Shown here: in pieces, positions 24,568 to 25,689 of the stretch
How positions within the stretch are numbered: position 1 is the first letter of the stretch
Layout: each line of letters starts with the position of its first letter
Source of the DNA: Bacillota bacterium
Lineage (GTDB): Bacteria; Actinomycetota; Aquicultoria; Aquicultorales; Aquicultoraceae
NCBI GenBank assembly: GCA_023511485.1
Contig: JAIMBH010000026.1
Span: forward strand, 1 to 33,668
Length of the DNA: 33,668 bases
Direction: 5' to 3'
Position numbers and translations under genes: made by a program
Notes under the pieces: generated by a model
The model's database searches: none
What the model was told of the DNA's origin: nothing
Seen by the model: only the letters and a program-made list of their open reading frames with translations

Positions 24568-24912
24568 GGCGCCTTAAAAAGCTTTTTAGCCGGATTTTAA
24601 GTTATTGGCAAAATTCTCTAGCCGCTGCTTATGCATAGCACAGCCCTTTAGGGATTTCCAAAAGCAAAGCAGTATAGCCTTTTTGCTTTACTTAAGCAGG
24701 CTTAGAGCCGTAAATTAAGTGCCTAAAATTAGCTTAAGCCTTCTAATTTACATCATTCTCCCTTCAGGTTTCCTTTTGGTCGGCACTTATTAACTATTAA
24801 TGACGTCGGAGAATAAAATACCTGCAATTTGCATTTTTGATTTCTAAATGACGATATAATAATATAGGTAAATAGAGTTATATAGCCGCTAACTTGATGA
24901 GGGAGTCAGAAA
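24568..24912. other. Intergenic region before the DUF5714 gene
   Basis: 345 nt without a gene. Just after the M23 stop is a perfect AT-rich palindrome (TAAAAAGCTTTTTA, near 24580), and AAAGCAAA (24661) can pair with TTTGCTTT (24682), either of which could be a terminator. TATAAT at 24855-24860 is the likely -10 of the DUF5714 gene; a TTGCAT lies 20 nt before it, which is too far for a normal promoter. Confidence 0.4.
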
Positions 24913-25689
24913 ATGGCCGATATAATCCGCCCAACAGGTGATTGCTGAGCACCTCCGGTAAAAAAGTATTCAGAAAACTGCATGGTATGCGGTGGCAAGT
25001 TAGATTACAAAGCTAACCCTGAACTCCTCACATGCTATTTCTGTGGGGAAACTAAGCATGGTAGCATATCCTGCCCAAACGGGCACTTCGTATGCGACAC
25101 CTGCCATGGTAAAGATGCATTTAGCGCGATAGTGGGGGTCGTGCTGAATACTAAATTAAACGACCCCATGGAAATTGCCGACCAAATAATGAGCCATCCT
25201 TCTGTTCCAATGATCGGTGGCGAGCACCATACAATTGTTGCCACATCGATTATGGCTGCACTTAAGAATAGTGGTCCCATCTTCTATAACGGGGAGCAAA
25301 TTAAGGTGGATAATAATTTTATCCGAAGGACCATTGATAGAACCTGGACCGATAAAATACCTTCCTGTATGTGCGCAAATTACGGTGCCTACGGCGCCGC
25401 TTTAGCAGCTGGAGCAGTGTTTAGCCTACTAACCGATGCAACATGCGACGTGCCAAAAGCAAGAGAGCGCCAAATCAGCATGGAGATAACTAATTACGCG
25501 GCTTCAGATATAGCCTGGTATCGCGGGACTTGCTGTAAGTTAAGCGTTAAGCTTGCAATCGATGGTGCCTGCCTGGCAATCAAAGAGCACTTTGATTTGA
25601 ACCTTCCGCGGAAAAGATCAAGATGCCAACACATGAAGAGGAACCCTTATAAATGCCTCGGTGCGCAATGCCCGTACTCAAAGGCGTAA
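24913..25689 (+). CDS. DUF5714-type Cys-rich protein with in-frame TGA (probable selenoprotein)
   Basis: 258 residues if TGA at 24946-24948 (codon 12) is read as selenocysteine (U). The ATG at 24913 has GGGAG seven nt upstream. The frame reads MADIIRPTGDC-U-APPVKKYSEN and then CMVCGG. The longest conventional ORF begins at Met 24982, inside this first CxxC pair, and has no ribosome site and no alternative start between the TGA and itself. Further Cys pairs follow: CYFC, the CPNGHFVCDTCH region, and later CMC, CC and C-x5-C (ending KCLGAQCPYSKA), with a GGEHHTIVA motif near residue 95. This is the pattern of DUF5714, whose function is unknown; metal or Fe-S binding is likely (inference). The gene is convergent with mnmA, only 4 nt apart. 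A real nonsense mutation is the main alternative. Confidence 0.75.
24978..24992 (+). promoter_or_regulatory. Candidate bacterial SECIS hairpin
   Basis: CTGCAT (24978-24983) pairs with ATGCGG (24987-24992, one G-T pair) around a GGT loop. The loop G residues are 35 nt after the TGA, within the spacing known for bacterial SECIS elements (loop about 16-37 nt downstream, with a G at the loop start). The 3-nt loop is tight; opening the last A-T pair gives TGGTA. A competing pairing of CACC (24950-24953) with GGTG (24991-24994) exists. Confidence 0.4.

Follow-up and report, generated by a model that had tools for sequence, protein, structure and literature searches.

A stand-alone DUF5714 gene predicted to encode a selenoprotein with a Cys-Sec pair on an N-terminal arm

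The gene located at positions 24913-25689 of the forward strand in the window, as the whole 33,668-nucleotide stretch of DNA analysed is called here, almost certainly encodes a selenoprotein. It is a stand-alone DUF5714 gene of 258 codons including one TGA, which would be read as selenocysteine (Sec) next to a Cys. The explanation favoured as a whole, in which we place somewhat better than even confidence, is that a Sec-decoded stand-alone DUF5714 protein uses its arm to grip a soft metal or metalloid and to hand it to the core. An earlier note on this DNA had announced a new selenoprotein. Sec in the DUF5714 family, and at the same Cys-Sec (CU) pair, is already catalogued in MbdU (NF045648, PMC13188914); the stand-alone form with a single Sec is the new part. 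The genome hosting the window is an assembly of 2.37 Mb in 58 contigs; its kin are Actinomycetota, and one member of the family is named Candidatus Aquicultor (G009, the same as L076).

Reading frame and selenocysteine decoding

The frame opens at ATG 24913, 7 nt 3' of a ribosome binding site GGGAG (24901-24905, +), meets TGA at codon 12 (24946-24948) immediately after a TGC codon (24943-24945), and continues open for 246 codons up to a TAA ending at 25689. The resulting Cys11-Sec12 pair (24943-24948, +) marks the end of a short N-terminal arm predicted to be disordered. The longest conventional ORF (24982-25689, +), the one to be expected from a standard gene caller, starts at Met24, within a CMVC motif; it is not preceded by a ribosome site, and no ATG, GTG or TTG codon is found between the TGA and Met24. 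All these features had been described in the earlier note, and are found in the sequence as described. The accompanying statement that the conserved Cys motif is made only by readthrough holds for the CU pair and for the first Cys of the CxxC, not for the motif as a whole.

Orthologues sharing 65-80% protein identity have been identified in four related genomes (G001-G004). ATG, a GGAG/GAGG-type site, Cys codon and TGA are present in all of them, and the in-frame TGA is therefore conserved in 5/5 orthologues, query included; in G004 the pair is encoded as TGT-TGA. A chance reading of the TGA was rejected because the same layout recurs in G001-G004, and a reassigned TGA because this triplet is the normal stop codon of 6/23 long ORFs in the window, where 0-37 open codons follow it. 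It is very improbable that the TGA is a true stop, with Met24 (24982) as the start of translation and a leader or a relic as the frame upstream. A conventional ORF does exist, but start at Met24 would remove C23, which is invariant across 46 homologues, and because of this loss and of the missing ribosome site the ORF is probably a truncation artefact. ATG, ribosome site, Cys-TGA and upstream peptide are moreover kept in five genomes, the codon freeze described below extends across Met24, and in many homologues this position is not a Met. A pseudogene, or an assembly error in which TGC or TGG was misread as TGA, has a negligible probability. The window genome is assembled in multiple contigs, and the codon was judged from the assembly alone, but the same TGA is found in independent assemblies at the protein identities given above, and purifying selection is seen on both sides of it.

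Sel genes in the same genome, the codon-12 column in homologues and a SECIS element had been suggested as checks on the selenoprotein assignment, and all three speak for it. Contig C47 of the window genome carries selA (639 bits), selB (415 bits) and tRNA-Sec (76 bits), all within 4 kb. A selA gene and a strong tRNA-Sec match were found also in three of the four genomes hosting an orthologue. G001, which belongs to the same genus and keeps a TGA-bearing orthologue, has no selA and no clear tRNA-Sec in a bin 97% complete. As sister genomes carry the sel genes together at one locus, binning loss is the likely, if unproven, cause, the alternative being a genuine loss of Sec decoding. The position occupied by TGA in the orthologues corresponds to Cys, in a CC pair, in L045, from a genome with no selA match, and in L046, from a genome with selA. 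Scans for promoters and terminators gave no signal exceeding chance, Rfam at a relaxed threshold gave only chance matches in the region, and no relatives of the query were found in the viral contigs searched.

The SECIS-like hairpin

A probable bacterial SECIS hairpin, ACUGCAU-GGU-AUGCGGU, is predicted by RNAalifold at 24977-24993 (+), with a stem of 7 bp and the loop at 24984-24986. It overlaps the stretch encoding the first CxxC. The loop is found 35 nt from the UGA in the query, and 29 nt from it in the other orthologues. According to the published rules (PMC13188914), bacterial SECIS elements feature a UGA-to-loop distance of 16-37 nt, a loop of 3-9 nt with a G within the first two positions and a stem of 4-16 bp; the GGU loop, the 7 bp and the 35 nt of the query all fit. 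Folding energy is borderline, being -7.4 kcal/mol for the 55-nt query stretch vs a rule of MFE <= -7.5 kcal/mol (PMC13188914), and ranges from -9.7 to -10.5 in the four orthologues. Folded as a single sequence, the 55-nt stretch is not better than its shuffles, and the SECIS argument for the query therefore rests on codon freeze and homologues.

At identical residues of the five orthologues, synonymous codons agree in 59/59 pairs over residues 21-28, compared to 45% gene-wide. This is the best window of the gene for codon identity, and it coincides with the RNAalifold hairpin. Base pairs never vary across the five orthologues, and the query-clade hairpin accordingly features no covariation. 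In Desulfosporosinus homologues, taken as control, the hairpin is found 18-21 nt after the UGA; there the freeze is 0.87 on the hairpin, and the CxxC codons score 0.49, which is the average. In Aquicultor-group paralogues with UC, codon freeze likewise peaks in a window located 3' of the UGA. Perfect 5-bp stems closed by a 4-nt loop and placed precisely 18 or 21 nt after the UGA number 34 among the tails of 42 relatives, and correspond to 33 sequences, L039 being counted at both distances. The loop is GGUC in 24 of these hairpins, and differing or compensatory pairs are found at most positions. The peptides AGQH or GGR recurring after CU are probably a by-product of the hairpin. Derivation of the query element from the AGQH-type hairpin of MbdU was considered first, but the tree separates the query clade from MbdU-type proteins, and the change may have run in either direction. 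The SECIS-like hairpin of the query has apparently been built inside metal-site codons.

The arm, its distribution and its proposed role

Two Cys-rich ribbons, C23xxC26...C41xxC44 and C54...H58...C61xxC64-H65 (24979-25107, +), are invariant in the 46 homologues and precede the DUF5714 domain (PF18978; 25132-25677, +), which is mostly helical and carries conserved C160, CCK (207-209), C238, C248 and C253. The assignment to DUF5714 made in the earlier note is borne out by a PF18978 match of 130.7 bits (E 5.5e-38; gathering score 26.2), limited to residues 74-255. In AlphaFold2 predictions based on 46 sequences the core is confident (pLDDT 90.1), and the poorly determined residues are mainly 1-20, which contain the CU pair and have a mean pLDDT of 42-57. 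The pair is thus likely to sit on a flexible vicinal arm. Neither sequence search of the PDB nor fold search returned a convincing match for the core; the best fold match, cis-aconitate decarboxylase (Z 5.0 over 132 residues), was discarded as too weak for use.

The family was scanned in one genome per species, yielding 80 loci, about 40 of which feature an N-terminal Cys-Sec pair. The arm is found on DUF5714 proteins of Desulfosporosinus, Nitrospirota, Desulfobulbaceae, Spirochaetia and Actinomycetota, and occurs as CU, UC or CC. Paralogues of Aquicultor type have mostly the Sec-Cys (UC) order; archaeal, Dehalococcoidales and gut homologues begin at the ribbon and have no arm. A selA gene above cut-off is present in 23/23 genomes with a CU arm vs 10/23 armless genomes, a contrast for which p 2e-5 assumes an independence that genomes do not have, and in which archaea lack bacterial selA by nature. 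In the core tree one group unites 14 armless rows (support 100/99), a second lineage comprises the query clade together with L044 (93/78), and MbdU-type proteins make up a third. By our own reading of this tree, the presence of the arm would be explained by essentially one change, and the arms of the query and MbdU are for this reason probably homologous.

Additional members of the family deviate from the basic organization. The window genome hosts two further DUF5714 genes, G000:C2 (L125:7568-8272) and G000:C35 (L126:990-1682), both with an in-frame UC upstream that conventional ORFs miss; by eye, no metal operon was recognised in their neighbourhoods. A paralogue at L029:296-1105 has the motif GUR, in which the TGA is retained and the adjacent Cys is replaced by Arg. 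DUF5714 is fused to an AhpD-like CxxU domain in L031/L049, L051 and L082. The fusions L051:7908-9050 and L082:2103-3278 are apparent triple selenoproteins, as three in-frame TGAs are found in each, at the N-terminal CU, at CEPU and at a C-terminal CKTU or CSFU. The fused paralogue L031:1141-2307 (-), the same as L049, has RR where relatives have CU and terminates in DCUTP (compare L024), which suggests relocation of the arm to the opposite end.

In MbdU, in turn, the DUF5714 module is fused to DUF2284, for which metal binding is predicted. DUF2284 and AhpD-like domains are found elsewhere fused to arsenite methyltransferase (NCBIfam NF041536, NF041537). At several loci of Deltaproteobacteria, Desulfobulbaceae and Nitrospirota, the gene comes after genes encoding a regulator of ArsR type, a TsoA-like selenoprotein, a small CU-bearing membrane protein similar to MerT and a WUPKC protein similar to ResA, a set that is not complete at every locus. 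Operons with multiple apparent selenoprotein genes adjoin CU-DUF5714 or MbdU genes at L064, L070, L072, L082, L083 (1-8 kb), L047 and L050. Their products show the motifs MVEHUIKEC (TsoA-like), MCUQLPLLLASFGLG (MerT-like) and GAHWUPKC (ResA-like); the MerT-like and ResA-like forms are well below NCBIfam cut-offs, and the TsoA-like score 83-108 vs 170 bits. The query gene is found outside such operons, next to an M23-like peptidase and a mnmA-like gene (named by eye). Since it stands alone, its ligand could differ from that of operon-borne relatives. A search run with no positive control revealed no close MerT-like gene in the query genome or in Aquicultor-type genomes.

In the mechanism proposed, the UGA at codon 12 would be read as Sec by SelB and tRNA-Sec, guided by the hairpin at 24977-24993. 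Cys11-Sec12 would sit on a flexible N-terminal arm preceding the two ribbons and the helical domain with its many Cys. The thiolate-selenolate pair would most likely grip a soft metal or metalloid of mercury or arsenic class, or organic forms of these, and the arm would pass it to the core Cys cluster, in the way the C-terminal Cys pair of MerA handles Hg2+. The conserved UGA, the Sec machinery, the codon freeze on the hairpin and the interchange of CU, UC and CC are, as far as sequence goes, features that can be read off directly; delivery to the core by a mobile arm and the nature of the ligand are what we infer from them. Capture and hand-off are favoured because of the fusions, the operons, the CU/UC/CC interchange, the mobile arm and the MerA analogy. 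That the ligand is a soft metal or a metalloid is rated at about an even chance.

The main rival, which we regard as possible but rather unlikely, is a redox arm, in which Cys and Sec form a selenylsulfide and carry electrons between the Cys-rich core and a reductant of thioredoxin type, a role resembling that of the Cys-Sec pair at the C-terminus of thioredoxin reductase. Partners such as AhpD-like CxxU domains and the ResA-like WUPKC protein suit such a role, a pyridine-nucleotide disulphide oxidoreductase is encoded immediately upstream in L079, and a CU pair in either order fits a vicinal selenylsulfide. However, the co-occurrence with MerT-like and ArsR genes and the fusion to DUF2284 point towards metals, and no cofactor-binding domain is found in the query protein. 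The two readings can be compatible, as in a metal reductase.

To return to metal capture and hand-off, a broader proposal is advanced tentatively, and held at somewhat less than even confidence. The exchangeable CU/UC/CC arm, found at either end of the protein in many phyla, could use selenium to hand off ligands of mercury or arsenic class, as part of a module for detoxification or organometals; stand-alone forms of this module would escape current annotation rules, and in the query lineage the SECIS could have shifted onto CxxC codons that are functional. The clean natural series CU, UC, CC and none, with the arm at the N- or C-terminus, makes it possible to test what selenium contributes to a pair of vicinal thiols. 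For a domain still labelled as of unknown function, the partners found in operons (MerT-like, ArsR and TsoA-like) suggest a metal or metalloid role that can be tested.

Relation to MbdU and other known systems

MbdU, the metal-binding double selenoprotein defined by NCBIfam NF045648, combines DUF5714 and DUF2284 (Haft and Tolstoy 2025, as cited in PMC13188914), and is listed as a CU protein with 2 Sec (PMC13188914). The claim of the earlier note that the family has no assigned function must be dropped, as NCBI names the fused form metal-binding. DUF5714 is not mentioned in the literature searched; the stand-alone forms are perhaps mentioned in Haft and Tolstoy 2025 (PMC12013261). L050 and L056 are full MbdU matches (760 and 797 bits), and their first Sec is in the same CU pair. 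The query scores 193 bits, over model positions 35-266 of 468, and does not reach the cut-off of 600 bits; other stand-alone forms similarly remain below it (L057 390 bits, L032 365, L039 198), and no other NCBIfam model matches either the query or these forms. Because stand-alone DUF5714 selenoproteins fall far below the cut-off of the sole matching model, routine gene prediction can be expected to leave out their Sec arm. The Pfam model PF18978 is of no help, as it omits the ribbons and the Sec arm, which are located upstream of the domain.

The N-terminal half of MbdU is homologous to the query, and the two share a CU arm ahead of the two Cys ribbons, and DUF5714. In contrast to MbdU, the query has neither a DUF2284 half nor a second Sec, contains a single TGA and ends after DUF5714. 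It belongs to a separate clade, its arm is short, and its hairpin overlies the CxxC codons, whereas that of MbdU comes right after the UGA.

The C-terminal Cys pair of MerA, which passes Hg2+ to the active site (PMC4500099), is a functional parallel only, as a mobile thiol pair delivering a soft metal to a buried Cys site; the arm of the query is instead N-terminal and selenium-bearing, and the likeness implies no claim of sequence relation. Other bacterial selenoproteins with CU motifs are SaoC, SaoL, HgcA, CopZ-like form 2 and KCU-star (PMC13188914). They are listed in other families and have been compared to the query by motif only; all share with it an adjacent Cys-Sec, and several are found in mercury or metal(loid) contexts.
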